Shown here one piece after another: positions 18,780 to 44,395 of a stretch of 64,000 nt of DNA. Both the position numbers and the translations under genes were made by a program. Under the pieces are notes generated by a model, which saw only the letters and a list, made by a program, of their open reading frames with translations, searched no databases and was not told the origin of the DNA. Source of the stretch: Parietaria judaica. Taxonomy: Eukaryota; Streptophyta; Magnoliopsida; Rosales; Urticaceae. Each line of letters begins with the position of its first letter. The first letter of the stretch is position 1. Where the stretch lies: contig OX940869.1 in assembly GCA_954871525.1 (NCBI GenBank), positions 11,245,001 to 11,309,000 of the forward strand, read 5' to 3'.

Positions 18780-19340
18780 ACGAGAAACTAGCTCACCACA
18801 AAAGGTCGTGAGTTCCTTCGCTCGCACCTTCCGAAAACGATCGTTTGCTATATCGAAGCCTCGCCAACACACGCCAATATGTTTCCTATCCTGCCGTTAC
18901 GTTTCGAACCTCGTCGAGATGATTTATGGTTTCGTCCCCGCAATACAAGAACTTGCCGAAGCACTCCGAAATTCGTCGATACGGTTTGCAATTTCGTCGC
19001 CGCACTCCGAGGACTCACCGATGCGCTCCGAAACTCGCCGACACAGTTCGCGGTTTTGTCGCGGCACTCCGGGAACTCGCCGATGGACTTCAGAACTTGC
19101 CGTTGCATTTCGGGAACATGCCAAAGTGTTACGGAACCTTGCCGACAAACTTTAGGACTCGCCGATCATCTTCGGAAAGTCGTTGCGGCAATTGTACGAG
19201 TTCAGGGCACAAAGATACATAAAACAGTAGGTATATGGAGTGATGGGCATAGATTTCTTCAGGACTCAAGTGTGAGTGAGGGACCTGAACTCGGAAGGGT
19301 TTGAAGGTAAGTGATGGAGATTAGAGAGATAAGCAGAGAA
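18780..19340 (+). repeat. GC-rich repeat A, copy 2
   Basis: Longer version of the block at 11540-11880, with the same CTCGCCGA..CGCTCCGAAA units, the same GTCGTTGCGGCAAT..ACGA exit and a shared CTCGGAAGG tail near 19290. Confidence 0.6.
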
Positions 19341-19978
19341 AGGGAGTTAAGAAGAGTGAGTAGCAAATGACTCAAAGACAATACCACACTACTACACCAC
19401 ACTACTACAAATATGAGATTATACTACGGAGCTTCCACTACGCAAGACAAAAAGCGTCGTTGGAATCATATATTCGACGATGGAAAATATTATGCGTAGT
19501 CGGAGTTAAAAAAAAAATAGAATTCCGACGACGCAAATTTTTATGTGTCGTCGGAATCATGTATTCGCCGCGGCAACTTAATATTTGCCGCGGCGAATGG
19601 TGTTCAACTACGCAAATATATGAGTGTCGTCTGGAGGGGTTGAAAATTCAAATATATGCCGCGGCGAATATTATGTTGCCGCGGCGGGTTATGTTTCCAA
19701 CTACGCATACATTAGTGTCGTCGGGATGGGAAACGACCTTCATGTCCAACGACACTTTTTAGTGTCGTTGGGGTTACTCGCCGCGGCGAATTTAAGTTTG
19801 CCGCGGCGAGAGTCGTGTTTTAACCCAAACAGGAGCCGAAATCCCTCATTTCGCACGAACCCTAAATTTCTCTTTCTCTCTCTCGCCTTCGCTCGCCGCC
19901 GCGACCTCGACCCATTCGCCGTCGCCCGCCTTCACCCGCCGTTTCCCGCCGTCGCTTGCCGTCGCCCACCGTCCAAAG

Positions 19979-20518
19979 GTTAGGCATGATCTCTTGGTGT
20001 TTTTGCTTGAATTTTTAGGATTTATCGATTTTTAGGGTTGAATAATGCTTTGGGTTTTTTTTTAATGATTTTATGCGATTTGGTTTGGATTTTATGCGAT
20101 TTTATGATTTTGAAATTGTGAATTTGATTAGGCTTTGAAATTGTGAGTATGTTTTGGAATTGTGAATTGTGATTAGGTTTAGGAATTGTGAATTGTGGTT
20201 AGGTTTTGAAATTGTGATTAGGTTTTGGAATTGTTAATTGTGATTAGGTTTAGGAATTGTGAATTGTGATTAGGTTTTGAAATTGTGCATAGGTTTTGGA
20301 ATTGTGAATCGTGATTAGGTTTTGAAATTGTGAATTGTGATTAGGTTTAGGAATTGTGAATTGTGATTAGGTTTTGAAATTGTTAATTAATTTTGCTTAG
20401 GAATTGTGATTAGGCCGATTTTTAATTATTGCGAATATATTTTGGTTTTAAAATTTAGTTTATGTTTTGGTTTGAATTCCGTGAAATGAATATATGCTAT
20501 ATTTTATTTTTTTTTCAG
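19979..20518 (+). repeat. Leader intron of CACTA ORF1 with tandem GTGATTAGGTTT repeats
   Basis: A GT follows CGTCCAAAG at 19978 and a TTTTTTTTTCAG ends at 20518, six bases before the ORF1 start codon, so this reads as a 540-bp leader intron. Its middle (20120-20420) is a degenerate tandem array of units like GAATTGTGATTAGGTTTTGAAATT. The inverted copy is at 34315-34620. Confidence 0.6.
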
Positions 20519-20524
20519 ATTTCA

Positions 20525-21814
20525 ATGGCGCCTAAAGTAAGACGGGGTGTTAGGAAAGAAACGGCGAAACGGGGAAAGCACTGGAATGTTGAAATGCCGG
20601 AAGACGAGGTCAATGAAACGGTTCCTCCGCCTCCGTCGCCGCATATGCCCTTAATGACGGAACCGGCAAAGAACCGTTACGCGAAGATATGCACGCGGAA
20701 ACTTTGCTCTGAGCGTGGTTTCACCGAATTACCGATCGCTTCAAATGCGGTGAATGACCTCGTCAACGCCAATTATCAACGCCGGGGTTGGCTAAATTAT
20801 ATGCTCGAGCCAAAGAACACGGCGTACACAAGCATGGTCCTCGAATTCTATGCGGCCCTCCCTGACAACGTCAAGGACGGGTTCGTGATTGTTCGAAATG
20901 TGCGCGTTCCCATCAGTCCGGAGGTCATAAATGCCTACTGTGGCACTCCGAATTATAGCGTAGAGGAGGATGAGCACAACCATTACCCGGGTGCTGAGGT
21001 CGAGTTGGACAAGGCATTTTACGACGACATCGATGCAACGATTGCGCAGCCCGGTGTGCAATGGCATTCAAGAGCTGGGGAATCACGCCTTGAGAAGAGC
21101 CAGTTGTCTTAGATCGGGAAAATTTGGATGTACTTCTTCGGTTTCCATCTTTACCCGCATCTTCACTTCACGGAGCTTCAGTTCGATTTTCTGAAGCTTA
21201 TCTACGCCGGCGCAAAAAGGTTGAACATCGATGTGGGTCGGGAGATCTTCCACCACATGAACCACGTCAACTACGACCACAAGAAGAGCTCATTGGGATT
21301 CCCTTTCCTTATTTCGGGTCTTTGCATGAATGCCGGGGTAAGTGTTATATAATACTAAACTATCATTTGATTAACTTGAATGTTGTTATTTTATTGATAC
21401 TAAATTTTATTGAATTTGATTGTTTAGGTCGAGGCATATGATCGCGAAATCACGTTTCCCAAAGGAGGTAATTTTGATGAGGCTTGGATAAGGAGTCTGA
21501 AGCCATCGGTGCTTGAAGCGCCACCTAGGCTCCAACCACTTGTGATTGGCGCCACCCCACCGGAGCAACAGTTTACATATGATGACATTCCCATGAAGGC
21601 GTTTATGGCTCACAGTCAGCGGGAAATGTACAACTACATGTGCTACGAACGCAGCTACCGGATGGCTCAAGATCCAAACTTCCAGCCACCAAATCCGTAT
21701 CCAGCTCCGGTTTGGCCAGCGAGGTATCCCGACTATTATCCCTTTCCCGGTGACGCAGGCGGATCCGGCAATGCAGGCGGCCACCACGAAGACGGAATTG
21801 ACGAAGACGCATGA
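20525..21814 (+). pseudogene. CACTA ORF1, PF20167-like 'putative plant transposon' protein (left copy)
   Basis: The chosen start is ATG 20525, just after a good 3' splice site; it gives MAPKVRRGVRKET. The core resembles the plant transposon protein domain once found next to retroelement genes: KNRYAKICTRKLCSERGFTE, then RRGWLNYM, VLEFYAALPDNVK and NVRVPISPEVINAYCGTPNY. A TAG at 21110-21112 interrupts the frame, which then continues as IGKIWMYFFGFHLYPHLHFT. A 90-bp GT-AG intron fits at 21338-21427, and the last exon ends at TGA 21812-21814 with a proline-rich tail. Function is unknown. It is not the DDE transposase. The same TAG is present in the right-hand copy, so it predates the duplication. 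Confidence 0.7.
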
Positions 21815-22059
21815 GGAACTGTTATTTTGTTATTTTTTCTTGAACAATTTTAAATTATGTTATTATTTTTTTTATTTTTGAACAATTTACTATGATTAGT
21901 TTTTGTTGTATTAGGTTTTTATAATTTCTTTGAACAATTTACAATGTTTAATTATTTTTTTTATTAACTTAATTATTTAAGTGTTGAAATAACAATTTAA
22001 AAAACAACTTAATTTCTGTCAAATACAACAATATTTGAAAATGTGAATTAAAATCTGCC

Positions 22060-22380
22060 ACGGCCATTTATCTAGTTGCCGCGGCTATGTTTCCAACGAC
22101 ACAAAAAAGTGTCGTCGTTAACAAATATTAGCCGCGGCACCCTAATATTTGCCGCGGCTACACTATGCGATAATATACCCGTAGCCTCTGTAATTTCTGA
22201 ACACAAATTGGCCGCGGCGAATAATATGTTGCCGCGGCTAATTTGTATCAGGATTAGCCGCGGCAAAATATGTTATGCCGCGGCATGTATTCTATACGAC
22301 GACACATATTAGTGTCGTCGTACAACTCGCCGCGGCAAGTTTAAGTTTGTCGCGGCGTGTTTCGGGAATTTTGACGACAC
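22060..22380 (+). repeat. CACTA subterminal-type repeat array (left arm) with deletion junction
   Basis: Repeated GCCGCGGC octamers alternate with a GACGACAC..GTGTCGTCG stem-loop motif. Around 22245 the sequence switches from matching 32588 upward to matching 27557 downward. This marks the loss of the block that on the right side contains Tnp2. Confidence 0.8.
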
Positions 22381-22864
22381 ATTCTATTTTGCTTCGTCGA
22401 ACCCCCAAATTTTCAATTTTTTTCCGCGTTATTTCAGTTTCCCTCCCTTTTTTCTATTTTTTCAGCTTTTTTCTTTCTCTTTCTCTCATTCTCCCTTCTC
22501 TCTTTTCTCTCTTTCTCTCATTCTCCCTTCTCTACTTTTCTCTTTTTCACCTTGTGCCGTCGCCGTCGCCGTTGCCGTGGAAGAGAACGCCGGCCATCAA
22601 CAAGTCTAGTCACGTTGATATTACATTGAACAAGGTTAGAATCTGAGCCCTAAATTGATATTACATTTTTAATGCATTTTTGTGTTAAAATAATATTGTT
22701 TATAGTTTATGTGATGATATTTTGATGATTTAGTGAATATCTCTTAATGTGTTCATGAATTTGTTGATGGTTTTTATTTTTTGTTGATTTGTGTTTTGGT
22801 TTGTTGGTGGGTTTATATTTTTCGAAATTTATTGATATATTTTTGTGGGTTCATGAACTTGTAG

Positions 22865-24877
22865 ATGAATTTTCGAGACGAATCACCCGAACGTGATGTA
22901 CGGGATCGAGAAGAATCACACGAACGTGAAATCAAACCCGATTAGCTTATTTTTATTTGCATTCGAAATTGTTGTATTGAACTAGTTTCTAAGATTTAGT
23001 TAATTATTTTATGGAGGTATAGACGAGAATGAATCAAAACCGAGAAGAAAACTAGAAGATCAAGGACAAAGAAAAGTGACTCTAATGAGAAGCATCAATG
23101 TATTGAAGCATAAGGGGGAAAAAGTTCATGTTAAATTTGATGAGAAAGAACAACCGGAAGGACAAGAAGGTGATTTTTTAGGTAGTTGGATTGGTGTGTT
23201 AGCTAGGGAATTCGCTCCAATAACTATTATCGATTGGAGAGATAAAAGTTATGCTAAGGTGAAAGAACGGATATGGAATGAAGTCAAACAAGCATTTGTA
23301 GTTCCGGGATGGTTCAAAAGAAAATGTTTATCAAGTGCCGCGACTTCGGCAAGACAATTCCGGCATGATCTCTCTACCCTAATCAATAAACATCCCAAGG
23401 GTAAAAGCATTTATGAGCGACCGGATATTGTTGAGAAGTACTACACGAGCATCACGGCCGAAGTATGGAAGGAATTTGTGGAAATTAGATTAAGTGAAAA
23501 GTTTGGGGAACTCTCGAAGCAAAATAAAGGTCATAGAGATCAAGTTGAATACCTCTCGAGAACGGGCCGAAATGGTTATCGGAAGATCGATCAACTACTA
23601 GTTAGGGTTCTAACTTTGTATTTTAATTTTATTTTATTTTATTGCCAAGAATCGAATAACATGTTTATTTTGTTTCTTAGCATGCCAAAAATGGACAATG
23701 GGCCACCTTACCCACACTTTGGTGCGTCACGAGGAAGAACCCCGATGGTTCATTAAAGGACTCAACTTTGGAGCCAATAATAGAGAAAATAGTAAGTACT
23801 TATATAATGTAGTGCAAATATAAGTAGTATATTTGATTCTCTTATAATTGTTGTTTTTTGTAGAACGAATATGCCACGCAAGAAGAAAATGGCGAGTTTG
23901 AACCCGATGAGGAAGTCGACGTATTGACAAGAGCGTTGGGAAAGAAAGATCATTCCGGACGAGTTCGGGGACAATCAAAATACGTCACAAAGCGAGCACA
24001 TCACCGAGCATCCAACTCAACGCCGAATCCCGTCGTTAAAAGCCTCCAAGCGGAAATTGAAGAAATGAAAGCGAAAAGCGAGGCGAAAGATGCGGCTTTG
24101 GAAGAATGGAAGTCAAAAATGGAACTATTTGTCCAACAATCAATTGCTCGAAATTTTGAAGGGAGTAACGATGCATGCTCCCGTGGCGGCACTCCGATTA
24201 GTCAACCGCTCGCACCGGTTACTCAACCCGTAGCTCCGGTTAGTTCGGGAAAAAAGACTAAGCCCGTATCGGTCGACAATGAAAGCGGTGTTGGCGGAAG
24301 GGGCTTGAAGGATGTACGACCGGCGGCCTCTCATCCAAAGACGCCCATTTCGGGTGATGGTGGCGTCGAATGTCTTCTCTACTCGGACGCTTTTGAAGAA
24401 TACGTCGCAAAGGGGAGGGCATATAAACGTTATATCCCGGGCGAGGAACCTTTTCTCAATAAAGAATGGGCGGGCGAATATACTCGGGTGTTAATTGAAG
24501 TGGTAGATGCTCCGATGCCTAATATTCCTCTCCCTATGGAAACGCAATGTATGGAATTTCTCGATGACGCGATCGGGAACTTAGTGCCTTGGCCGACAAG
24601 GTTAATCAAGAAAGTCGATTCCCAAGGTAGTCCATCTCTCATACCTAAGCCAAAAGAGGTTGCCAAAAGTGCACAAGATCCAAAAAAGATTAAGATGTCT
24701 ACCGTTGTTCCGGAATTGAGACCGTTGGCCGATTATGCCAACAATTATATGCTCGCACCAAATGCATTACTCGAAGTGAATCTTGATAAAAGTTTGGGTC
24801 AAGATTTAACTTATTTAACTTTCGATGATATGCGCGAATTTCTAATCTCCGAGGACTTGAATGTGTCGTTGGGATAA
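22865..24877 (+). CDS. CACTA Transposase_24/DUF8039-like protein (left copy)
   Basis: Four exons can be traced: 22865-22940, 23023-23600, 23681-23791 and 23864-24877, about 592 residues. Exon 2 carries the Ptta/En/Spm Transposase_24 pattern (NVLKHKGEKVHVKFDE, DFLGSWIGVLARE, IWNEVKQAFVVPGWFKRKCL, SRTGRNGYRKIDQLL). Exon 3 has NGQWATLPTLWCVTRKNPDG. Exon 4 has a probable coiled coil (SLQAEIEEMKAKSEAKDAAL) and a DUF8039-like block (CLLYSDAFEEYVAKGRAYKR.. to AIGNLVPWPTRLIKKV). The 3' end runs into the palindrome spacer and stops at 24875, so the natural C-terminus is lost. The first donor site is AT here but GT in the right copy, which would spoil splicing. Such proteins probably bind element DNA (TnpA-like); that role is inferred. 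Confidence 0.7.
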
Positions 24878-26937
24878 ATTTTCGCCGCGGCAACATTATA
24901 TTTGCCGCGGCCAATATTGACCCAAACTTTTATATTCACATTCAAGTCCTCGGAGATTAGAAATTCGCGCATATCATCGAAAGTTAAATAAGTTAAATCT
25001 TGACCCAAACTTTTATCAAGATTCACTTCGAGTAATGCATTTGGTGCGAGCATATAATTGTTGGCATAATCGGCCAACGGTCTCAATTCCGGGACAACGG
25101 TAGACATCTTAATCTTTTTTGGATCTTGTGCACTTTTGGCAACCTCTTTTGGCTTAGGTATGAGAGATGGACTACCTTGGGAATCGACTTTCTTGATTAA
25201 CCTTGTCGGCCAAGGCACTAAGTTCCCGATCGCGTCATCGAGAAATTCCATACATTGCGTTTCCATAGGGAGAGGAATATTAGGCATCGGAGCATCTACC
25301 ACTTCAATTAACACCCGAGTATATTCGCCCGCCCATTCTTTATTGAGAAAAGGTTCCTCGCCCGGGATATAACGTTTATATGCCCTCCCCTTTGCGACGT
25401 ATTCTTCAAAAGCGTCCGAGTAGAGAAGACATTCGACGCCACCATCACCCGAAATGGGCGTCTTTGGATGAGAGGCCGCCGGTCGTACATCCTTCAAGCC
25501 CCTTCCGCCAACACCGCTTTCATTGTCGACCGATACGGGCTTAGTCTTTTTTCCCGAACTAACCGGAGCGACGGGTTGAGTAACCGGTGCGAGCGGTTGA
25601 CTAATCGGAGTGCCGCCACGGGAGCATGCATCGTTACTCCCTTCAAAATTTCGAGCAATTGATTGTTGGACAAATAGTTCCATTTTTGACTTCCATTCTT
25701 CCAAAGCCGCATCTTTCGCCTCGCTTTTCGCTTTCATTTCTTCAATTTCCGCTTGGAGGCTTTTAACGACGGGATTCGGCGTTGAGTTGGATGCTCGGTG
25801 ATGTGCTCGCTTTGTGACGTATTTTGATTGTCCCCGAACTCGTCCGGAATGATCTTTCTTTCCCAACGCTCTTGTCAATACGTCGACTTCCTCATCGGGT
25901 TCAAACTCGCCATTTTCTTCTTGCGTGGCATATTCGTTCTACAAAAAACAACAATTATAAGAGAATCAAATATACTACTTATATTTGCACTACATTATAT
26001 AAGTACTTACTATTTTCTCTATTATTGGCTCCAAAGTTGAGTCCTTTAATGAACCATCGGGGTTCTTCCTCGTGACGCACCAAAGTGTGGGTAAGGTGGC
26101 CCATTGTCCATTTTTGGCATGCTAAGAAACAAAATAAACATGTTATTCGATTCTTGGCAATAAAATAAAATAAAATTAAAATACAAAGTTAGAACCCTAA
26201 CTAGTAGTTGATCGATCTTCCGATAACCATTTCGGCCCGTTCTCGAGAGGTATTCAACTTGATCTCTATGACCTTTATTTTGCTTCGAGAGTTCCCCAAA
26301 CTTTTCACTTAATCTAATTTCCACAAATTCCTTCCATACTTCGGCCGTGATGCTCGTGTAGTACTTCTCAACAATATCCGGTCGCTCATAAATGCTTTTA
26401 CCCTTGGGATGTTTATTGATTAGGGTAGAGAGATCATGCCGGAATTGTCTTGCCGAAGTCGCGGCACTTGATAAACATTTTCTTTTGAACCATCCCGGAA
26501 CTACAAATGCTTGTTTGACTTCATTCCATATCCGTTCTTTCACCTTAGCATAACTTTTATCTCTCCAATCGATAATAGTTATTGAAGCGAATTCCCTAGC
26601 TAACACACCAATCCAACTACCTAAAAAATCACCTTCTTGTCCTTCCGGTTGTTCTTTCTCATCAAATTTAACATGAACTTTTTCCCCCTTATGCTTCAAT
26701 ACATTGATGCTTCTCATTAGAGTCACTTTTCTTTGTCCTTGATCTTCTAGTTTTCTTCTCGGTTTTGATTCATTCTCGTCTATACCTCCATAAAATAATT
26801 AACTAAATCTTAGAAACTAGTTCAATACAACAATTTCGAATGCAAATAAAAATAAGCTAACCGGGTTTGATTTCACGTTCGTGTGATTCTTCTCGATCCC
26901 GTACATCACGTTCGGGTGATTCGTCTCGAAAATTCAT
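24811..26937 (-). CDS. CACTA Transposase_24/DUF8039-like protein (right copy)
   Basis: Inverted twin of the gene at 22865-24877, with exons at 26937-26862, 26779-26202, 26121-26011 and 25938-24811. Here the first donor site is an intact GT. The reading frame crosses the palindrome centre and ends in the opposite arm at 24811. The last 33 or so residues therefore come from spacer and antisense DNA, and the true C-terminus is missing. Domain content is the same as the left copy. One amino-acid difference is visible in the first block (FAPI to FASI). Within the element this gene lies downstream of Tnp2 on the same strand, as expected for a CACTA accessory protein. Confidence 0.7.
24864..24938. 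other. Spacer at the centre of the CACTA palindrome
   Basis: About 75 bp separates the inverted arms (GAGGACTTGAATGTG ends at 24863; its complement starts at 24939). It contains two GCCGCGGC-type subterminal motifs and a second GACCCAAACTTTTAT segment also found in the right arm near 25002. It looks like a scrap of element terminus trapped at the fold. Confidence 0.75.
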
Positions 26938-27557
26938 CTACAAGTTCATGAACCCACAAAAATATATCAATAAATTTCGAAAAATATAAACCCACCAACA
27001 AACCAAAACACAAATCAACAAAAATTAAAAACCATCAACAAATTCATGAACACATTAAGAGATATTCACTAAATCATCAAAATATCATCACATAAACTAT
27101 AAACAACATTATTTTAACACAAAAATGCATTAAAAATGTAATATCAATTTAGGGCTCAGATTCTAACCTTGTTCAATGTAATATCAACGTGACTAGACTT
27201 GTTGATGGCCGGCGTTCTCTTCCACGGCGACGGCGACGGCGACGGCACAAGGTGAAAAAGAGAAAAGGAGAGAAGGGAGAATGAGAGAAAGAGAGAAAAG
27301 AGAGAAGGGCCAATGAGAGAAAGAGAAAGAAAAAAGCTGAAAAAATAGAAAAAAGGGAGGGAAACTGAAATAACGCGGAAAAAAATCGAAAATTTGGGGG
27401 TTCGACGACACAAAATAGAATGTGTCGTCAAAATTCCCAAAACACGCCGCGGCAAACTTAAACTTGCCGCGGCGAGTTGTACGACGACACTAATATGTGT
27501 CGTCGTATAGAATACATGCCGCGGCATAACATATTTTGCCGCGGCTAATCCTGATAC
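24939..27557 (-). repeat. Inner inverted block of the CACTA palindrome (right side)
   Basis: Gap-free inverted match of 22245-24863 (coordinate sum 49802). It includes the Transposase_24-like gene and a pyrimidine/purine-rich leader (27245-27400, inverted copy of 22430-22560). Confidence 0.9.
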
Positions 27558-27780
27558 AAATAAACCCGTAGCCTCTGTAAAATTGGATGCAGGATTAGCC
27601 GCGGCACAATATTGTGTGCCGCGGCGACTATAACCAACGACACTTAAATGTATTGTCGTACAGCACACTTGCCGCGGCACAATATTGTGTGCCGCGGCAA
27701 ATTCTAGAAGAAACATACCCGTAGCTTTTGTTAAAATGGATGTAAATTTCGCCACGGCTAAAATAACAATGCCGCGGCTA
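27440..27780 (-). repeat. GCCGCGGC-rich array between the two CACTA genes
   Basis: Several GCCGCGGC motifs alternate with GTGTCGTCG stems and with a block containing CCCGTAGCYTYTGTWA. CACAATATTGTGTGCCGCGG appears twice. The part beyond 27557 has no counterpart in the left arm. Confidence 0.65.
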
Positions 27781-27929
27781 ATTTAGATCATTTTTTTATT
27801 TTCCATTTTTCACTTGAAAAAAAAAACCTCTTATTTTACTCTTAGTTTATATTATTACACTTTATTTAACTGAGTATAATTTATAATTAGTAAATGAACA
27901 CCACGAATGCATTGATTTCCCAAGTAAAA

Positions 27930-28330
27930 TTATGCAAAAAAGGGTTTTAGGATTTAGGGCTTAGGGTTAGGGTTAGGGTTAGGGTTTAACTAATTTAGGG
28001 TTTAGAGTTTAGGAACCAATTTTATTTAAACAAAAATTAATGCAAGAGTACATAATGAAATTATTTCCCAAGTAAAGGGTTTTACGGTTTTAGGGTTTAA
28101 GGTTTAGGGTTTAGGGTTTAGGGTTAGGGTTATGGTTTAACCATTTATTAAATTCTTAAACAACGAATTTTATTTAATCAAAAAATAATTTCAAGAGTAT
28201 ATAATTAAATTATTTCCGAAGTTTCCTTTTGCCAAAAAGGGTTTTAGGGTTTAGGGGTTAGGGTTAAGGTTAGGGTTACTTAGGGTTAGGGTTAAGGTTA
28301 AGGCCGTTAGCTAGGGTTCTAAACTTTTTC
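27930..28330 (+). repeat. Interstitial telomere-like repeats in three tandem units
   Basis: Three clusters of TTAGGG/TTTAGGG-type repeats (about 27945-28012, 28077-28137 and 28230-28320) sit in a degenerate tandem unit of 140-155 bp. The unit also contains a CCAAGTAAA or CCGAAGTTT block and an AA..TTTTATTTAA block. They lie just downstream of the Tnp2 gene inside the CACTA element. Confidence 0.8.
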
Positions 28331-28489
28331 ATTAAGTTACAAACTAATTATGTCAAACTTAGTGTTGACTAATTATATATAATGTTACAATAATAAACTA
28401 CATAAAAAAAATGTAAAAATATATCTCAAATTAACCACTATATTAAGTATAGGTACTTTTGCCGCTATTCTAAAAATATTTTTCAGAGA

Positions 28490-28625
28490 GATTTATAAGT
28501 CTGCCGCGGCATATCTTTATTAGCCGCGTCATAATATTTAATCCGACGACACTTTTTAGTGTCGTTGGAATGTTAGCCGCGGCAACTTGATAAGTCGCCG
28601 CGGCATGTTGAAAAAGTTGTTTTGT
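28490..28625. repeat. Short CCGCGGC/GTGTCGTTG motif cluster
   Basis: GCCGCGGCATATC, TTAGCCGCG, CCGACGACAC..GTGTCGTTGG, AGCCGCGGCAAC and CGCCGCGGCATG occur within 130 bp, about 200 bp downstream of the Tnp2 stop codon. Confidence 0.6.
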
Positions 28626-28824
28626 TTTTCTATCTTTTACACATTGAAAAAATTAAAAAAATCAACGGTAAGTACTTGCTTCTGACAATTTAACTTAAAT
28701 CACATCAGTAACTTATATTATGAAATAATAATAAATTTTTAATCATAAATAAAGTCATAAAACTACATTATTAAACAAGTAGAATGAAATAAAAAATTAT
28801 TATTAATATTGATAAGTGAATATT

Positions 28825-31800
28825 TCATTCAATTTCTGTTGACGGGATGTCTAGACGTCGCAACTTAGAAACTTCATCATCATCAAAGTTCTCGACCTCT
28901 TCAATGCTCGGTAGCTTCTTCGAGAATGGTGCGATGGTGGTTATGTCTACGGCTTCTTCGTTGGAATATTCTTCTACGTTTTTTGCCTTCACATGCACGA
29001 CAAGAGATAATTCTGGATCAATCGGGATGGAGACATAAAACACTTGAGTTGCTTGGGATGCCATTATAAATGAATCATTGGCGTAGCCCACTCGTCTAAA
29101 GTCAACGACTGTAATTCCGTCATCGTCAACTTTTACGTAGTTGTTGTCGGCCCATTTGCACTTAAACAATCCAACTCGCAAACCACAATAATCAAGCTCC
29201 CAGATATCTTCTACATATCCGTAGTAGCTCATAATAGCTTGTACTGGATTCTTATCCTTGGCCGACGCAACATGCATTCCTTCCGCAAATAACGTAACAC
29301 CGCTGTTTTGTACGGGGTGTTTTTCGTCTCTTCCCCTTGTGTAAAACGTGTACCCGTTAACGTACCATGATGTGAACCGGGTAACTACTTGTGAAGGGCC
29401 ACCGGAGATCTTCAATATTGTCTCATCATAATGCTTTCTCCTTTGATATAAATGTTCATCGAACCACTTTGGAAACGTACGGTTGTGCTCTTCTTGTAGC
29501 CATTTTACATTTTTTGACTTTTTCGGATAAATACGCCTCAACTCATTCATATGCACATCAATAAAGGGCTCCACACCGGTTGAATTGTGCAACACATATA
29601 GAACGGCTTGCTCCCATTCTTTTCGGTTGACAGTCGAAGGATTACCTGCGCATCAAAACATCAAAGATCAGTTATTATTTTAACGATATTTTTTATATAA
29701 TAAAATTATTAATTATTACTTGAGGATAAGCCTTTTGATTCCGCAATGGCGAGTTTAGGCACCCCAATCGGCGGAGTTTTCGCGCAATACTCAGCACAAA
29801 ATTCAACCGACTCCTCCGCCATATAACATTCGACAATGCTCCCTTCTGGCCGATTATAATTCTTCACGTACCCTTTCAAGACTTTCATATAACGCTCAAT
29901 CGGATACATCCATCGTAAAAATATGGGTCCACAAAACTTCACTTCTCGTACTAAGTGAACAGTTAAGTGTATCATGATGTCGAAAAATGACGGTGGAAAG
30001 AACGTCTCGAGCATGCATAGGGTTTTAACCAAGTCCGCCTGTATCTCGTCGAGTTCCAATGTCTTTACTGTTTTGGCACAGATTTTGTTGAAAAACTCAC
30101 ATAACTTGGAAATGGCATACCGAACTTCCTTTGACAAAAAACCTCGCAATGCAAGAGGAAGTATTTGTTGAAGCAACATATGACAATCGTGGGTCTTCAT
30201 TCCGATAAGTCTCAAATCCTTCATAGATACAAACCTCTTGTAGTTCGACGAATGACCTTCGGGAAATTTTATGGCCGCAAGCCATTCACAAAACTTCCTT
30301 CGTTCCGGTCGAGATAACGTGTGCACAGCCGGTGGTAGAAATGTTTTTTTTTCCTTGAGTCTCGGGATACAAGCCCGGTCTTATACCCAATTCAACGAGA
30401 TCTTCTCGAGCTTTCTTCCCGTCTTTTGTTTTATTTGGATCATCTAGCAAAGTACCGACAATCGACTCACACACATTTTTTTCAATGTGCATAACGTCCA
30501 AACAATGACGAACATAATGCGACTTCCAATACGGGAGCTCATAGAAAATTGATACTTTCTTGAACGGTTTATCTTCATACGACTTTTTCTTACCGCTTAA
30601 TTTTCTTTTTCCAAGCACTGGATAAGTCTCTTCGCAAATCAACTTATAGACAGCTTCGCCGTTCAAAATTCTTGGAGGTCTTCGAAATTCTTGATGTCTA
30701 TTAAACTTCTTCGCATTCTTCCTGTACGGGTGATGTAACGGTAAAAATCTCCTATGATCGAGAAAAACTGTCTTCTTCCCATGCTTCAACCGGGTCGAAC
30801 ATGTATCTTTGATGCAAACAGGACAACCAATTTTGCATTTAACTGAGTAACCTGACAAGTTCCCGTACGCCGGGAAGTCGTTGATTGTCCACATTAACAT
30901 TGCTTTTAATTTGAACTCTTCTTGTAGGTGCGCATCCATGACCGTCATTCCTTCTTCCCACATAATCTTCAAATCATCGGTCAATGGTGCCAAGTAAACA
31001 TCTATGTCATTTCCCGGTTGGCTCGGTCCCGAAATTAAAAGCGTCAACATTAAAAACTTCCGCTTCATACACAATTTCGTAGGGAGGTTGTAGTTGATGA
31101 GTATTACCGGCCAAACACTATATCGACTACTCATGTTCCCAAATGGATTCATCCCATCGGTGGCCAAACCGAGACGCAAATTCCTGTGATCTGCACTGAA
31201 TTCCGGATGATGGGCGTCAAAAGATTTCCACTGTACAGCATCAACGGGGCGTCTTATAACGCCATCTTTACTGCGGTTTTTTGAGTGCCAAATCATGTTC
31301 TTCGCGTGAGTGGGATTGTTAAACATGCGTTTAAACCGCGGCAACGGGGGAATGTACCGTAATACTTTTTGTGGAACCCCTTTGACACCGTCGTGAGGCT
31401 TCTTCCCTATCTTCCACCTTGACTCATTGCAGACCGGACATTCCATTAAATATTCATGCTTATTCCTATACAGTACGCAATCCTTTGGACATGCATGAAG
31501 CTTATCGAACTTCAAACCTAACAACCCCAAAGTCATTTTTGCGTCATACATGGATAAAGGCACTCTATTTCCCTCCGGAAGCACATCCCGAAGGGCTTCC
31601 AACAATTGCGTAAAGCTAGTATTTGACCAACCTCCTGCCGCCTTTAAATGAAATAACGTCACCAAAAACCCTACTTTCGAACTCTTACACCCATCAAACA
31701 AAGGAGCTTCTAAATCATCCACCATCGACTCAAATAACTCCGGTCTTCCCACAAAATCCTCTTCTGCGCATTTCATCAAACCGTCCACGTCATCCTCTTC

Positions 31801-32076
31801 GACGTCTTGTTCTTGTACATAATCATCGACTCTTCTACCACGAATTTTTTCCCCGTGAAAGTACCAATGATCATATGAACTCATTATACCAAACGCAAAT
31901 AAGTGCGATTCGACATCCTCCATAGATTTTGAAACTAAATTTCCACATATGATACATGGACACCGAATAAATTCTCCTCTTCTATACTTAAATTTAACAA
32001 GATCAAAAAACTCTTGAACACCTCTTCGGTAATCATCGCTCAATCTATTTGCTTTCATCCATTCTCTAGAAGCCAT
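28825..32076 (-). CDS. CACTA Tnp2-type transposase (frameshift in a homopolymer)
   Basis: This should catalyse excision and integration of the element. From the N-terminus (ATG at 32076): a transposase-associated domain (REWMKANRLSDDYRRGVQEF, FIRCPCIICGN). Next the Transposase_21/Tnp2 core (LATDGMNPFGNMSSRYSVWP, MDAHLQEEFKLKAMLMWTIN, DFPAYGNLSGYSVKCKIGCP, HCLDVMHIEKNVCESIVGTL). Then DUF4218 (30326-29720: THDCHMLLQQILPLALRG, FLRWMYPIERYMKVLKGYVK). A 74-bp GT-AG intron fits at 29646-29719. Exon 2 carries a DUF4216-like region (WYVNGYTFYTRGRDEKHPVQ) and ends at 28825. At 30344-30352 nine A residues (minus strand) stand where eight would keep the frame, so the core and DUF4218 are out of register. 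That single base may be mutation or sequencing error. Otherwise the gene looks intact. Confidence 0.88.
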
Positions 32077-32279
32077 AATGCAAATCTATTTAACAAGATC
32101 CAGAATTTTGAGAAATAATACCTTTCTTTCCCATAGACAAGCCGATAAGACAAAGCTAAAATCCTTCAACCAAGTCGCCTAAGTTGACTAAGTGTGAAAT
32201 GGATTGTGTATGTGGAGTGTATAGAGAAATAAGTGAAAGGAAATCCTAAATAAGAGTTATAAAATCTCAGATCTGCGAC

Positions 32280-32770
32280 ATCAGCCGCGGCACATTAAAT
32301 AATGCCGCGGCAGAACTTCTCAGACGACACTCTTTTGTGTCGTCGTACAACTCGCCGCGGCAAATATGAATTCACCACGGCTAAAACAACCTCAGAAATT
32401 ACAGAGGCTACGGGTTGTTTTTTCGCACAGTTTTGCCGCGGCAAACATATATTCGCCGCGGCAAAAAAAATTTGGCCGCGGCATATCACAGTTCGCCGCG
32501 GCTAAACAATGCTCAGAAATTACAGAGGCTACGGGTTGATTATCGCACAGTTTTAGCCGCGGCGAAAATATACTTGCCGCGGCTAACAAAAATTAGCCGC
32601 GGCAACATACTATTCGCCGCGGCCAATGTGTGCTCAGAAATTACAGAGGCTACGGGTATATTATCGCATAGTGTAGCCGCGGCGAATATTAGGGTGCCGC
32701 GGCTAATATTTGTTAACGACGACATTTTTTGTGTCGTTGGAAATATAGCCGCGGCAACTAGATAAATGGC
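32280..32770. repeat. CACTA array with three units of about 120 bp
   Basis: CTCAGAAATTACAGAGGCTA starts at about 32391, 32511 and 32632, so the period is about 120 bp. Between the starts lie four or so GCCGCGGC motifs per unit. A GACGACAC..GTGTCGTCG stem stands at 32323-32348. The array covers the region upstream of Tnp2 and probably holds accessory-protein binding sites and the promoter (inference). The left arm keeps only its outermost part. Confidence 0.8.
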
Positions 32771-35332
32771 CGTGGCAGATTTTAATTCACATTTTCAAAT
32801 ATTGTTGTATTTGACAGAAATTAAGTTGTTTTTTAAATTGTTATTTCAACACTTAAATAATTAAGTTAATAAAAAAAATAATTAAACATTGTAAATTGTT
32901 CAAAGAAATTATAAAAACCTAATACAACAAAAACTAATCATAGTAAATTGTTCAAAAATAAAAAAAATAATAACATAATTTAAAATTGTTCAAGAAAAAA
33001 TAACAAAATAACAGTTCCTCATGCGTCTTCGTCAATTCCGTCTTCGTGGTGGCCGCCTGCATTGCCGGATCCGCCTGCGTCACCGGGAAAGGGATAATAG
33101 TCGGGATACCTCGCTGGCCAAACCGGAGCTGGATACGGATTTGGTGGCTGGAAGTTTGGATCTTGAGCCATCCGGTAGCTGCGTTCGTAGCACATGTAGT
33201 TGTACATTTCCCGCTGACTGTGAGCCATAAACGCCCTCATGGGAATGTCATCATATGTAAACTGTTGCTCCGGTGGGGTGGCGCCAATCACAAGTGGTTG
33301 GAGCCTAGGTGGCGCTTCAAGCACCGATGGCTTCAGACTCCTTATCCAAGCCTCATCAAAATTACCTCCTTTGGGAAACGTGATTTCGCGATCATATGCC
33401 TCGACCTAAACAATCAAATTCAATAAAATTTATTATCAATAAAATAACAACATTCAAGTTAATCAAATGATAGTTTAGTATTATATAACACTTACCCCGG
33501 CATTCATGCAAAGACCCGAAATAAGGAAAGGGAATCCCAATGAGCTCTTCTTGTGGTCGTAGTTGACGTGGTTCATGTGGTGGAAGATCTCCCGACCCAC
33601 ATCGATGTTCAACCCTTTTGCGCCGGCGTAGATAAGCTTCAGAAAATCGAACTGAAGCTCCGTGAAGTGAAGATGCGGGTAAAGATGGAAACCGAAGAAG
33701 TACATCCAAATTTTCCCGATCTAAGACAACTGGCTCTTCTCAAGGCGTGATTCCCCAGCTCTTGAATGCCATTGCACACCGGGCTGCGCAATCGTTGCAT
33801 CGATGTCGTCGTAAAATGCCTTGTCCAACTCGACCTCAGCACCCGGGTAATGGTTGTGCTCATCCTCCTCTACGCTATAATTCGGAGTGCCACAGTAGGC
33901 ATTTATGACCTCCGGACTGATGGGAACGCGCACATTTCAAACAATCACGAACCCGTCCTTGACGTTGTCAGGGAGGGCCGCATAGAATTCGAGGACCATG
34001 CTTGTGTACGCCGTGTTCTTTGGCTCGAGCATATAATTTAGCCAACCCCGGCGTTGATAATTGGCGTTGACGAGGTCATTCACCGCATTTGAAGCGATCG
34101 GTAATTCGGTGAAACCACGCTCAGAGCAAAGTTTCCGCGTGCATATCTTCGCGTAACGGTTCTTTGCCGGTTCCGTCATTAAGGGCATATGCGGCGACGG
34201 AGGCGGAGGAACCGTTTCATTGAAAAAAATATAGCATATATTCATTTCACGGAATTCAAACCAAAACATAAACTAAATTTTAAAACCAAAATATATTCGC
34301 ATTAATTAAAAATCGGCCTAATCACAATTCCTAAACAAAATTAATTAACAATTTCAAAACCTAATCACAATTCACAACTCCTAAACCTAATCACAATTCA
34401 CAATTTCAAAACCTAATCACGATTCACAATTCCAAAACCTATGCACAATTTCAAAACCTAATCACAATTCACAATTCCTAAACCTAATCACAATTAACAA
34501 TTCCAAAACCTAATCACAATTTCAAAACCTAACCACAATTCACAATTCCTAAACCTAATCACAATTCACAATTCTAAAACATACTCACAATTTCAAAGCC
34601 TAATCAAATTCACAATTTCAAAATCATAAAATCGCATAAAATCCAAACCTAATCGCATAAAATCATTAAAAAAAACCCCAAAGCATTATTCAACCCTAAA
34701 AATCGATAAATCCTAAAAATTCAAGCAAAAACACCAAGAGATCATGCCTAACCTTTGGACGGCGGGCGACGGCAAGCGACGGCGGGAAACGGCGGGCGAA
34801 GGCGGGCGACGGCGAATGGGTCGAGGTCGCGGCGGCGAGCGAAGGCAAGAGAGAGAAAGAGAAATTTAGGGTTCGTGCGAAATGAGGGACTTCGGCTCCT
34901 GTTTGGGTAAAAACACGACTCTCGCCGCGGAAAACTTAAATTCGCCGCGGCGAGTCACCCCAACGACAGTAAAAAGTGTCGTTGGACATGAAGGTCGTTT
35001 TCCATCCCGACGACACTAATGTATGCGTAGTTGGAAACATAACCCGCCGCGGCAACATAATATTCGCCGCGGCATATATTTGAATTTTCAACCCCTCCAG
35101 ACGACACTCATATATTTGCGTAGTTGAACACCATTCGCCGCGGCAAATATTAAGTTGCCGCGGCGAATACATGATTCCGACGACACATAAAAATTTGCGT
35201 CGTCGGAATTCTATTTTTTTTTTTAACTCCGACTACGCATAATATTTTCCATCGTCGAATATATGATTCCAACGACGCTTTTTGTCTTGCGTAGTGGAAG
35301 CTCCGTAGTATAATCTCATATTTGTAGTAGTG
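32588..35332 (-). repeat. Outer inverted block of the CACTA palindrome (right side)
   Basis: Inverted match of 19400-22245. It has a 102-bp deletion relative to the left arm (the segment corresponding to about 20510-20617). Confidence 0.9.
33019..34269 (-). pseudogene. CACTA ORF1, PF20167-like protein (right copy)
   Basis: Inverted twin of 20525-21814. The 102-bp deletion removes the 3' splice site of the leader intron, the start codon and about 30 residues, so the frame now begins MFWFEFREMNICYIFFNETV. A CGA to TGA change just before the NVRVPISPEV block adds a stop (near 33934). The TAG after EKSQLS is shared with the left copy. The last exon (33324-33019) is intact. It cannot make the full protein. 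Confidence 0.75.
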
Positions 35333-35510
35333 AGAAACTCAGCCCCGATGAGCCACCCGAACCACCCAACGAAGCATGCTTGAATTCGAGGACGAATTCT
35401 TTCCGACCCGGTGAGAATGATGCGGGCATAAAGCGTCATTTGAAACACCTGAAGCCCAACGCCGCAACCCCGAATTCAAGGACGACTTCTTTCTATCCCG
35501 GAGAGAATGA
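35333..35510 (+). repeat. 3' end of a Ty3/gypsy element: two polypurine/LTR-start copies
   Basis: GAATTCGAGGACGAATTCTT..CCCGGTGAGAATGATGCGGG at about 35388-35430 and GAATTCAAGGACGACTTCTT..CCCGGAGAGAATGATGCGGG at about 35472-35515 are near copies 84 bp apart. They read like the LRT(N/T)SF.PGENDA end of a gypsy pol frame followed by the polypurine tract and the LTR start. The pol body is absent. Confidence 0.65.
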
Positions 35511-39194: not shown

Positions 39195-39423
39195 CACGTA
39201 AAGGCCGAACATTTGGGCGACTCATGGTCCAAGGCGGCGGTGATGCTTTAATCTCTAGTGGAAGCTTGGAAATCCGATTCATTGAAAAGCTTAAGGATTC
39301 GTCTAGAGAACTTATTGTCACTGTGTAAGTTTTAATTATATCGAGTTATCTAGATCAAAATATTCGAGGATTCAAAGAATTTCCGGTGTGATGAGAATAT
39401 CCTGGAAACTCGGATTGTACTAC

Positions 39424-39961
39424 TGATGCAGCGGAATTTAATAATTTTGTGTCCACATCCAAGAACACAAAACGAAGAACAAGCGATCGTGCTCGCATCC
39501 ACGAACACAATCAAAACTCTAACAAATTCACGTCCTCCACGTAAACAATCAGAGTAACTCAAGATCAACTAGAACAAGAGTGAATTTTGGTGAGCAAATA
39601 GACGCTCGTTTTCTGGTATTTTCATTCAAATTTCAAAACTGATCAAAAAAAAAAACAAAGGTTCGTACCTTATAATAAAGAAAGAAAACAGTTGAACTAT
39701 TCTCCCTAAATAAGTGCAACTATCTCTAAATAAAAGGGAATTAAAAAAAAACTAAGTCAGAGAACGTGTGCCACACGTGTGAAAAAGCATACTACGAACG
39801 CCGTGTCTTCTCCACCGCGACTTCCGTGGTTCCCCAGTTCCAGCCACTTTTTTGAGCCGCAACGCGGTGTTTTCGCCGCGCCATTTCCGGTTTGATCACT
39901 GGACAAATTTTCATCGCTCTTTTCACCGTGCTGTACCAGCTCTGTTTCCGGTGCTCCGTCA
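39424..39961 (-). repeat. 3' LTR of the gypsy element
   Basis: 538 bp; near copy of 44396-44955. The polypurine tract (minus-strand CCCGGGGAGAA, 39962-39972) adjoins it. It lacks the short CACGTGTGAATAA.. insertion seen near 44737-44790 in the other LTR. Confidence 0.88.
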
Positions 39962-42780
39962 TTCTCCCCGGGTAAGAAAAAATTTGTCCCCGAATTTTCA
40001 TCATCATCGGCATAAGGAACCAAATGTTTGATGTTGAAGATGCTTGCAATACGGATGTGTGGAGGAAGTTTAAGACGATAAGCATTGGAATTAATCTTCT
40101 CCACAATTTCCATTAGGCCAATCCTACGTGTAGCAAGTTTGTTGTAGTCCAAGGAATTGAACCGAACTTTTGTGAGAACAACCCACACTTTGTCTCCAAC
40201 ATTAAATTCCAGAGATCGTTTCTTCGTGTCTACAACAGCTTTATATTTAGTTGTCGCAACCTCCATGTTTTTACGAACAACTTTGTGTATATCTTGCAAA
40301 GACGAGACAAAATCTTTGGCTCTGGCATGAATAATGGCATTCTTGGGCAATGGCAGAAGGTCTAGAGGACCTTTTGGTAGAGTACTGTACACCACCTGGA
40401 ATGGATTGTAACTCGTACTCTTGTTATTAGTGTGATTATATGCGAATAAGGCTTGACAAAGTTTGAGATCCCAACTTTTAATGTTTTCACCAACCAAGCA
40501 TCGAAGCATGTTACCCAAAGATCGATTGACAACTTCGGTCTGTCCATCCGTCTGAGGGTGATAAGCGCTGCTAAACTTCAAACTTGTGTTGACCATTTTC
40601 CATAAGCTTCTCCAAAAGTGGCTAAGAAATTTTGTATCACGATCTGACACAATAAAATTAGGCAAGCCATGGAGTTTGTAAACTTCACGAAAAAAGAGTT
40701 GTGCCACATTAACCGCATCAGCCGTTCGTTTGCAACGAATAAAATGCGCCATTTTAGAGAAAGGGTCAACCACTACGAAGATTGAATCGTGACCCTTTTG
40801 TGTACGAGGAAGTCCTAATACGAAGTCCATGCTCAAGACTACCCATAGTTGTTCAGGAATGGGCAGAGGCAAGTAAAGTCTGGCATTTGACGTTGTCCCT
40901 TTGGAGGTTTGACAAACACGGCAATGATGGACAAATCGTTCAACTTCCTTACGCATCGTAGGCTAATAGTATGAAGCTTGAATCTACTTGAGCGTTTTGT
41001 CACGACCCGTATGTCCTTCACTGTGCAGTTCTTGGATAATTTTTAAGCACATACTACAATCTGGGATACATAATTGATTCTGTTTGAACAAGAACCCTTG
41101 CACCAGTTCATAGGTTGTATATTCACCAGCTTTGGTTATTTCCCACACATCAGAAAAAGAACTATAAGTGGCATATAGTTTTGGAACAAAATCAAGTCCA
41201 GGTACATCAACTCTTAGTTCGACAAGCAAGCTACGCTTTCGACTTAGCGCATCGGCGACTTTGTTCGTTACTCCCGACTGGTGCTTGAAAACGAACGTAA
41301 ACCCTTCAAGAAAATCCACCCATTTAGCGTGTCGTGAACAGATTTTGTCTTGGCGATGGAGGTGTTTTAGGTCCTCGTGATCGGTGTACAGTACAAATTC
41401 TTTTTGGAACAAATAGTGCCTCCAATGCTTTACGGCTTGAACCACGACGTAGAACTCCACATTATACGTGCTATAACGAAGTTTAGCGCCCGATAACTTC
41501 TCGCTATAGAACGCTACAAGTTTCCCATTTTGGCTCAAAACTGCACCAATCCTGACCTTGGATGCATCAGCGTGTAGCACAAACGGCTGTGTGAAATCAG
41601 GTAGTATCAAAATCGGGGATGTCGTGACCTTTGATTTGATTAAGTCGAATGTCGTGGCTGCTTCTTGTGTCCAACATAATTTTTTATCTTTCAAGCATGA
41701 AGTAATAGGTGCCATAATGGTGCTAAAGTGAGGGATAAAATGCCTATAAAAAGATGCAAGATCATGGAAACTTCGCACATCAGTAATTGACTTAGGAGTG
41801 GGTCAATTTTGAACAGGCGTTATCTTTGACTTGACAACTTTTAACCCATCCGCCGACACAACATAACTCAAAAAAAGTACCTCGCTTGTCCTGAAGACAC
41901 ATTTTTTAGTAGCCGCATAAAACCGTTCCTTGCGCAAAACTTGTAGTACTTCACGTAAGTGCTGGAGGTGCTCATCTAAGTTGGAACTATAAATGAGGAT
42001 GTCGTCGAAATAAACGACAACACACTTTCCAATAAAAGGTCGAAGAATTTGGTTCATTACCCGCATGAAGGTACTTGGTGTATTGGACAGCCCGAACGGC
42101 ATCACAAGCCATTTAAACAAGCCTTCACGAGTCTTGAATGTCGTTTTCCACTCATTGCCCATGCGGATTCTGATTTGGTGATACCTGCTTTTTAAATCCA
42201 GCTTGGTGAATATCCTGGCTCCACTCAATTGATCTAGCAAATCATCAAGTCGCAGAATAGGAAAACGATACCTTACTGTGATCTTATTGATCGCTCGACT
42301 ATCAACACACATGCGCCACACACCTTCTTTCTTCGGCGTTAACAAAGCAGGGACTGCACAAGGACTCAAACTTTCTCTTACGTGTCCTTTTGAGATTAAC
42401 TCTTCGAGTTGTCTCTGTAACTCTTCATGCTCGGAAGGACTCATGCGATAATGAGGTCGATTCGGTAGTGTCGCTCCAGGTACAAGGTCAATATGATGTT
42501 GAATATCCCGCAGCGGAGGCAGCTCGGTTGGTAATTCCTTTAGGAATACATTACGGAATTCAGCAATTAGTTCCGTAGCCTCCTCAGGTACATGTGTACA
42601 TCCTTGGGTCTCTTTGCTTACTAGTACAAAAACGACACCAGAGTCTTGGACCTCTTGATCAAATTGTGCAATTGTAAGCAACGATGGATTACTCAGTTTC
42701 GTTTGTTCCTGCATGTCTGATTTCTTTGGCAATAATATCAACTTAATGCCTTGAGCATAAATGTATATGTTTTCTCTTTA
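39962..42780 (-). pseudogene. Ty3/gypsy pol: reverse transcriptase, RNase H, integrase
   Basis: All parts lie in one frame. RT (42741-41806) shows [55 protein letters not shown] and the catalytic [12 protein letters not shown] stop at 41803-41805 follows. RNase H (41778-40987) has LHADASK..IGAVLSQ, YSEKLSGAKLRYSTYNVEFY, TDHEDLKHL and ADALSRKR. A TAG at 40984-40986 and another shortly after break the HH-CC finger region. Integrase (40956 onward) shows HHCRVCQTSKG, then the DDE residues in LSMDFVLGLP, VSDRDTKF and YHPQTDGQTEVVNRS. The frame ends with ASIFNIKHLVPY and NFFLPGENDGA just before the polypurine tract. I see no chromodomain. The lineage (CRM/Reina-like or other) cannot be settled by eye. 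Confidence 0.9.
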
Positions 42781-43195
42781 CCACTGTGAGTAACATCACG
42801 GTCATATAGTCATGGTCTTCCCAATAAAACATGGCATGCATCCATAGGAATAATATCACACCAAATTCTATCTTTGTAATGACTACCAATTGAAATGGGA
42901 ACTAATGCACGTTTAGAAATCGTCACCTTTTTTTCTTGTTACATCCACGCCAGTTTGTACGGTCTCGGGTGTGACTCGGGTTGTAATTGGAGTTTCTGAA
43001 CCGCTTCTAGCGCAATAAGGTTCTCACAGCTTCCTCCATCAATGACGAACTTGCATACTTTTCCCGAAATGGTACAAGTTGACTGAAAGATGCTCCGTCT
43101 CCGCCAATCTTCTTCGTCAACTCGAGGCGCTAGGAATGATAGACCATCAGAGCGAGGCTAACATCACCAGAAACAAACTCCTCTCATGATTCTGG
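42781..43195 (-). pseudogene. Ty3/gypsy protease region
   Basis: On the minus strand around 43090-43010 the text translates as TCTISGKVCKFVIDGGSCEN followed by LIALEAVQKL. This is the aspartic protease of gypsy elements with active-site D-G-G. Stops and a probable frame change separate it from gag and RT. Confidence 0.75.
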
Positions 43196-44357
43196 TTATT
43201 CGTCAGAACGATGCTCATCGTCGGTATCTTTGTCTTCATTTCCCTCTTCCACCTCGGCAAGAAGAACTCGTTTTCCACCCTTTATGCAGTCACGTTCACG
43301 ATGTCCCAATTCTACACAACCAAAACATTTGAGATTGTTTCCCACACTTGGTTTGTTGAATGATGGTGTAGCTTGTGGCTTTGAGTTTGGATTAGCTACT
43401 GCAGATCGGTTTCCGCTCGCATATATTCCCGGCCCACCACCACGAGAACTCCCTTCAGGTGTATTATTTGAGATACCCAAACTGCGAGAAAAATTAGAGA
43501 CGCCGGCGCTCGGTCGTCGTTGTTGCTTTTCGACTTGTAAGGCTTGTTGGTGAGCGGAAGAGACTAACACGGGATCAAGAATATTTACAATATCTTGAAT
43601 CTGTATCTTAAGGCCCTCCTATGTACCTCGCCACCATTTGGTCTTCAGTTTCTTGAAGCTCATTCCTGATCATGAGTTGGTAAAATTCCGTGGTGTACTC
43701 GTCCACTGAACGAACTCCTTGCTTTAGTGACTGTAGTTTCAGGTACATGATGCGTTGAAAATTATATGGGAGAATATTTCCACGCATGTGCTTCTTTAGT
43801 TTCTCCCATGAATTGATTTTTGGCTTGCCCAAGCGACTTCGACTCAGCTTTAATTGTTGCCACCATGCTATCGCTCTGTTTCGGAATCTGGTTGCTACAA
43901 GGGACACTCTTCTATCTTCTGGTACGTCTTTAAATTCAAGGATGTCTTCGACCGCCGCAATCCAATCCAAAAATTCTTCAGGTTGTAGACTTCCATGGAA
44001 TTCAGGAATCTCCGTGCGCATCCCGGATTCCCAATAACGCCGGTCTTCATTTTCCCTAGGTCGGTGTTGTTGTTCACGCATCCTCGCACGATCTCAGGGC
44101 TGCTCTTCGGCGTCTCCAAAATCGTCATAAATCGGGTTCCTTATCGTTTTCGGGATGGGTCTGCGATTAAGGTCATGATTATTGTGACCAACAAAGACCT
44201 ATGATACATGTTGTGTAATGCGGGCAATAACTGCTTCCATCCGATCGTTGAACATTCCCTCGATCTGGGCTTCAAGTCGCTGTTCTAGCCTCGCAAACTC
44301 CTCTTGGACGAAGATCTCATCAAGCGGTCCCTCCACTGGTTGTTTTCTCGGCGGCAT
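43196..44357 (-). pseudogene. Ty3/gypsy gag with CCHC zinc knuckle
   Basis: The start is ATG at 44357 (MPPRKQPVEGPLDEIF), 24 bp after the primer-binding site. Two in-frame stops follow before the retrotransposon gag domain (44081-43611: [60 protein letters not shown]). After a stop and frame change, 43570-43199 holds a serine- and proline-rich linker. It also holds the knuckle CFGCVELGHRERDC (CX2CX4HX4C) and an acidic tail. Gag would package element RNA; this copy cannot make the full protein. Confidence 0.85.
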
Positions 44358-44380
44358 GATTAAATCCAAGAGCTAACGCA

Positions 44381-44392: not shown

Positions 44393-44395
44393 AAC

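Follow-up and report, generated by a model that had tools for sequence, protein, structure and literature searches.

Does a palindrome formed inside a plant transposon supply its family with a source of silencing RNA, or is it the inert scar of a dead element? This question is raised by a locus of 15.9 kb (positions 19400-35332) in a stretch of 64,000 nucleotides from Parietaria judaica, hereafter the window (GenBank assembly GCA_954871525.1, contig OX940869.1, positions 11,245,001 to 11,309,000; C19:11245001-11309000 in our searches of the host genome, which cover 538.7 Mb in 87 contigs). The locus derives from a CACTA element and consists of a giant inverted duplication, in which the blocks 24939-27561 and 32587-35332 recur inverted as 19400-24863; the duplication is confirmed and is no chance match. 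An earlier note on this DNA had described such a structure with two genes in both orientations, and the arms as well as the two genes, here called gene A and gene B (Table 1), bear that description out. We lean toward reading the locus as a protein-dead CACTA derivative with two 5′ ends, which likely arose by fold-back repair in gene B, and whose transcripts would form a 2.6-kb hairpin giving rise to predicted small interfering RNAs (siRNAs) that match full-length relatives. To our knowledge, the best-known natural trigger of transposon silencing is Mu killer of maize; the Mu killer-like architecture of this rearranged CACTA derivative is a confirmed structure, and silencing by it is plausible from its sequence.

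Structure of the Inverted Duplication

Self-comparison of the locus yields an innermost arm pair (22236-24865 / 24937-27566) of 2630 bp that is 99% complementary with 71 bp between its halves, followed outward by further pairs at 22104-22251 / 32583-32730, 20610-22108 / 32725-34223, 19508-20508 / 34223-35223, and 19400-19517 / 35215-35332. Together with the alignment of the arms, these pairs place the arm coordinates of the earlier note within a few bases, and its short spacer of about 75 bp likewise holds. Its wording that the arms are almost identical stands as an overall figure (40 substitutions in 5362 aligned bp, plus two 1-bp indels, by base-by-base alignment) but needs a qualifier, since divergence is uneven: in order along the arm, it amounts to 0/330, 16/778, 4/1479, 14/485, and 6/2290, and clustering of this kind was matched by 13 of 20000 shuffles. 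The outermost block, 19400-19729, is identical in both arms except for one 1-bp indel.

Two large differences separate the arms, namely a 5.0-kb transposase segment (27562-32586) that is present in the right arm and absent from the left, and 102 bp at 20508-20609 of the left arm that are deleted from the right. A fold-back read artefact is an unlikely source of the palindrome, given that each arm has substitutions of its own and that the large deletions differ between them. Across the left deletion junction, the whole 241-bp query is matched by this locus alone (40 of 291 candidates scored). At second rank, bases 1-165 are matched at 90%, as they are by the undeleted right arm; the similarity of the repeats on the two sides accounts for such partial matches. 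The right 102-bp deletion is not matched across in one piece by any of the other 39 places scored (40 of 181 candidates). The diverged stretches 19730-20507 and 22089-22573 each border one private deletion (the 102 bp on the right and the transposase segment on the left, respectively), and look as if conversion between the arms had failed next to mismatched segments.

Termini, Flanks, and Parent Element

The parent element can be read from nine relatives fetched from the host genome, seven of which are covered at both ends, with c6_37.38 and c8_24.63 uncovered at the 3′ end. In the seven, the parent measures 11.3-12.1 kb and runs from the 5′ end CACTACTACAAATATGAG to a distinct 3′ end, CCCCTTTTTTGTAGTAGTG; a perfect 3-bp target duplication accompanies six of them, and the seventh has lost its 5′ end. 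Two of the nine relatives, G000:C6:37384000-37393999 and G000:C8:24634000-24643999, are likewise without the transposase segment, and the end points of the deletion are particular to each. As in other CACTA (En/Spm) elements, for example soybean Tgmt*, CACTA terminal inverted repeats, subterminal repeats, and a TNP2 transposase are found at the locus, and the relatives resemble Tgmt* in their 3-bp target duplications (PMC2613891). Unlike an ordinary CACTA element, the locus has a 5′ end on either side in place of a distinct 3′ end, and no 3-bp target duplication, the flanking triplets being CCA and AGA; it also lacks the Peptidase_C48 part into which gene B continues in the one relative read that far. 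With two 5′ ends and no target duplication, it is therefore a rearranged derivative and not an intact CACTA element.

The two flanks are unrelated. For the left flank, no other genomic match was found with a query over 19312-19386, which stops short of 19387-19399 (seven of seven candidates scored), while the right flank lies in a dispersed repeat, retrotransposon-like by reading (40 of 175 candidates scored). A 13-bp tandem duplication, ACCACACTACTAC, lies across the left terminus at 19383-19409 and is possibly end-joining filler or a disturbed target duplication.

These termini bear on the idea that the palindrome is itself mobile, its two 5′ ends being functional and the whole unit transposing, which we regard as extremely improbable. 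Both ends do stop exactly at CACTACTACA, and a second AGA stands 21 bp upstream of the left end, the 13-bp terminus duplication lying in between, which may represent a disturbed target duplication. However, the target duplication seen in six of the seven relatives is missing, the stretch just upstream of the right-flank repeat in two other copies was not found to the left of the locus, and the palindrome center has no second place in the host genome (40 of 235 first-look candidates scored). With a single locus among the candidates scored and no target duplication, it does not belong to self-amplifying foldback elements or those resembling miniature inverted-repeat transposable elements.

Damage to the Genes

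All three genes of the locus are damaged, and hence an intact protein would not be expected from it. Gene A carries a premature TAG at 21110, common to the left and right copies and absent in all seven relatives in which the region was found (of the nine fetched); in the left arm, the Transposase_32 match continues behind this stop. In the left copy of gene B, the splice donor at 22941-22942 is lost through a change that none of the nine relatives shows, and in all nine, gene B runs past the point at which both arms stop. The right copy of gene B is without the Peptidase_C48 exons that one full-length relative encodes; the corresponding domain lies behind gene B in the relative at C19:15401000-15419000, the only one read that far. 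The TNP2-type transposase is frameshifted at a homopolymer near 30342-30350, and two relatives retain open transposase frames of 791 and 729 residues.

In a search of 5.8 billion proteins, the best relative of the first transposase open reading frame (ORF) was 63% identical over 99% of its length. One exon of gene B, used as a protein query, matched none of 2308 candidates at E ≤ 0.001, and the spliced gene B gave a single weak match of 23% identity among 7996 candidates scored, which left the C-terminus undefined; the C-terminal part of gene B was defined instead by reading its relatives in the host genome. Viral and bacterial collections yielded no useful relatives except one likely plant contaminant: contig LFMX01000071.1 of Candidatus Burkholderia humilis (5001-6758) contains a relative of the plant TNP2 transposase, 46% identical, and is likely plant contamination.

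The Central Spacer as a Probable Repair Junction

The spacer between the arms is likely a template-switch, fold-back repair junction, as suggested by its composition. Positions 24917-24933 are an exact 17-bp copy of 25000-25016 / 24786-24802; read from the right arm, the source lies in gene B about 60 bp upstream. Positions 24863-24918 correspond to a 56-bp unit of the parent’s 3′ subterminal repeats, which is matched at 56/56 in two relatives, 55/56 in three, and 53/53 in one, is not among the two matches listed for the seventh relative, and sits 410 bp (334 bp in one relative) from the parent’s 3′ end. Read from the right arm, the spacer is thus a run of 17 bp and then 56 bp, followed by CAC, which the inverted gene B has in common with it. 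A corresponding sequence of events may be proposed, in which a broken end inside gene B would have been extended first by 17 bp templated locally and next by 56 bp from the element’s own 3′ subterminal repeats, before pairing through CAC, with gene B and gene A copied backwards from there.

Similar junctions have been described elsewhere. Templated fillers mark polymerase-theta end joining in Arabidopsis (PMC10923293), which the filler in this spacer resembles, and inverted duplications have been proposed to arise by fold-back priming at breaks (PMC10622511). In yeast and cancer, the inverted duplications attributed to such priming at double-strand breaks likewise surround a short spacer (PMC10622511); unlike them, the present locus is confined to a transposon, and both of its sides end exactly at 5′ termini.

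One Origin or Two

Trees of the arms with their relatives give different answers for different blocks. The arms are sisters in 20610-22088 (support 100/99, seven relatives) and in 22574-24863 (97/93, eight relatives), whereas they are not sisters in 19400-20507 (3% of bootstrap trees, nine relatives) or in 22089-22573, beside the transposase deletion (10% of bootstrap trees, seven relatives). Nine derived mutations are exclusive to both arms and all fall within the two inner blocks; shared and private changes stand at 9:10 against 0:23 between the block types (P = 0.0002), a comparison in which the private counts are biased because the block borders were drawn after the divergence had been seen, and the bare position of the nine shared mutations gives P = 0.04. 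Across the genome, the copy closest to 20611-21130 is the other arm, with one difference in 520 (99.8%), and the next reaches 98% (40 of 216 candidates scored). In the outer block, 12 other copies rank above the right arm when the left is the query (40 of 479 candidates scored), and 10 rank above the left arm when the right is the query (40 of 342). Methylation-driven decay of the diverged blocks is not favored, with 8 of 23 private changes being C-to-T or G-to-A.

Our conclusion from these comparisons is that a single element was the source of the inner parts, and that either a different family member probably supplied the outer left end or two copies became partly homogenized. The first course fits fold-back repair: if the far left end came from another member, as is probable on this reading, the unrelated flank and the lack of a target duplication would be accounted for. 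The second course amounts to two separate insertions, either of tail-to-tail members or followed by an inversion, with loss of the 3′ parts and later homogenization by gene conversion. It is rather unlikely in our estimation, although it agrees with the unrelated flanks and absent target duplication, with the failure of the arms to group in the outermost block and beside the transposase deletion, and with the other copies that outscore the partner arm in the outer block. It does not readily account for arms that both end within 3 bp of one gene B position, for a spacer that reads as one template-switch chain, or for the sister relationship of the inner blocks; moreover, a pattern for the product reciprocal to such an inversion, in which a CACTA 3′ end would adjoin the upstream part of the right-flank repeat at a guessed junction, returned no matches with up to three mismatches.

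The same evidence weighs on an assembly artefact, by which two family copies would have been joined through a subterminal repeat at the center. The spacer does hold a repeat unit common in the family; against an artefact stand the locally templated 17-bp copy, the end of both arms at the same point, the nine mutations exclusive to the two arms, and the large contigs of the assembly, so that this explanation is very improbable.

The Predicted Hairpin and Its Targets

The geometry needed for a hairpin, which the earlier note had anticipated, is present: the predicted fold of 24000-25802 is one hairpin, in which 1730 of 1803 bases are paired in arm register (within 1 base), at -1786 kcal/mol compared with -418 for one equally long control stretch. 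Between the arms, 88.6% of the 24-nucleotide windows of stem B are perfect, and 72.8-81.0% of them occur exactly in each of seven relatives; for stem A, the exact windows in relatives amount to 65.9-75.5%. Since exact 24-nucleotide windows occur in the relatives, siRNAs from the stem could be directed against their 5′ end and their genes A and B. The two 5′ ends face each other and presumably hold promoters, and transcription from them, or readthrough from outside, may produce a hairpin or convergent double-stranded RNA, which would cover the 5′ end of the family and genes A and B; siRNAs of the palindrome would likely add to RNA-directed DNA methylation of the family. The transposase lies outside the inverted duplication, with 27562-32586 being single-copy, and as this segment is placed between the arms, it would therefore not become double-stranded. 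For this reason, the palindrome is probably not a complete off-switch for the family.

Several points weigh against the hairpin reading. The transposase gene is outside the stem, and the stem is not special in its matches, as 58.6-76.7% of the 24-nucleotide windows from the unpaired transposase segment match the same relatives, and about 19-27% of the stem-B 24-mers are inexact for any given relative. AATAAA signals on the plus strand (26133-26174) might terminate transcripts short of the complete stem. The family is numerous: besides the two arms, at least 38 copies match the gene A stretch of the left arm at 96-98% identity (40 places scored, both arms included), and every search scored 40 places out of 181-479 candidates. 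Because of these copies, a family-wide shut-off is not evident. Relatives diverge by 0.27-1.55% in block 20610-22088, and the differences between them fall as low as 0.27% and 0.44% in the inner blocks; being so numerous and so little diverged, the family was plausibly still active at about the time the palindrome arose or later. The unrelated flanks and the absence of shared mutations in the outer block are also left unexplained by the fold-back step alone.

Most plant transposons are silent by default, as is generally known, and the locus may accordingly be pictured as a passive relic, that is, the repair scar of a dead transposon, methylated and untranscribed, without effect on its relatives. 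This is a serious possibility that we nevertheless rate as somewhat less than probable. The damage to all three genes, the position of the transposase outside the stem, and the many similar family copies speak for it. The extreme hairpin geometry speaks against it, as do proposals that transposon inverted repeats are siRNA sources in plants, made for Mu killer (PMC3440606) and for wheat CACTA terminal repeats (PMC2996936), and the correlation of hairpin structure with small RNAs among maize transposons (PMC10760457).

Comparison with Known Silencing Loci

The earlier note had drawn a parallel to Mu killer, the inverted duplication of MuDR in maize, and its architectural part stands. The two terminal inverted repeats of Mu killer derive from a single end of the element, and its pair of partial gene copies adjoin as an inverted duplication (PMC3440606); both features, ends from one element end and partial genes meeting inverted, are found here. 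The parallel does not extend to the transposase, since mudrA lies inside the inverted part of Mu killer, whereas TNP2 is outside the stem at this locus. Furthermore, Mu killer belongs to Mutator and has a silencing phenotype, whereas this locus is a CACTA derivative with no known silencing phenotype. In size, the 2.6-kb inner stem within 15.9 kb compares with about 1.3 kb of duplicated mudrA in Mu killer, and the center is sequenced here, whereas that of Mu killer could not be sequenced in the published study (PMC3440606). For Mu killer, the center has been suggested to give rise to a long hairpin that shares homology with autonomous relatives, and silencing individuals bore short antisense transcripts, a picture more complex than that of a simple hairpin (PMC3440606).

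A stronger version of the comparison would make this locus a natural CACTA counterpart of Mu killer, a coding-dead fold-back palindrome producing hairpin siRNAs that match the family’s 5′ end and its genes A and B and would silence the whole family in trans, the transposase coding region being untargeted. We consider this version doubtful. By title or abstract, no palindromic CACTA silencing locus appeared among the matches listed in the silencing, CACTA, and repair literature, a body of text to which subscription journals are mostly external.

Feature Coordinates and Other Contents of the Window

Table 1. Features of the palindromic CACTA locus, in positions of the window.
Feature	Position	Strand	Remarks
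Left flank, CCA	19397..19399	.	Differs from right flank
Left 5′ end	19400..19729	+	CACTACTACAAATATGAG terminus, subterminal GCCGCGGC / CGACGACAC repeats; same 5′ end as full-length relatives
Gene A, left copy	20525..21814	+	Transposase_32 (PF20167); two inferred exons
Left-arm junction without the 5.0-kb transposase segment	22240..22241	.	Arm alignment, genome search
Left half of 2.6-kb inner inverted repeat	22241..24863	+	Predicted hairpin stem; self-comparison, fold
Gene B, left copy	22865..24863	+	Transposase_24 (PF03004); truncated at center; exons inferred
Central spacer	24864..24937	.	Two-part composite
Right half of 2.6-kb inner inverted repeat	24939..27561	-	Self-comparison, fold
Gene B, right copy	24939..26937	-	Truncated within 3 bp of the left copy’s end point
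TNP2-type transposase	28828..32085	-	Single copy outside stem; Transposase_21, Transpos_assoc, DUF4218, DUF4216
Gene A, right copy	33022..34223	-	Start codon and splice acceptor removed by 102-bp deletion at 34223/34224
Right end	34224..35332	-	Repeats the 5′ end of the left side; no 3′ end
Right flank, AGA	35333..35335	.	Within dispersed repeat
Locus-only variants common to both arms	20636, 20735, 20860, 20890, 20940, 21110, 23696, 24282, 24845

Elsewhere in the window, a bacterial/organelle-type small-subunit ribosomal RNA fragment occurs at 10606-11165 on the plus strand (RF00177, 136 bits) and is probably organelle DNA in the nuclear genome. A retrotransposon at 39422-44955, of Gypsy type by reading, has end repeats that are about 82% similar and minus-strand frames, one with integrase-type domains. 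An ORF of 395 amino acids at 48025-49209 on the plus strand encodes a GRAS domain (E 3.3e-77) and represents a plant regulatory gene, and a tyrosine transfer RNA (anticodon gta) was found at 54374-54464 on the minus strand by both Rfam and ARAGORN.

Implications

How plant genomes first recognize a transposon as foreign is an open question. The locus offers a sequenced palindrome in another superfamily, with dozens of close relatives and nine markers of its own, through which it may be asked if palindromes start silencing. In addition, its readable repair junction would record how palindromes form inside plant transposons.

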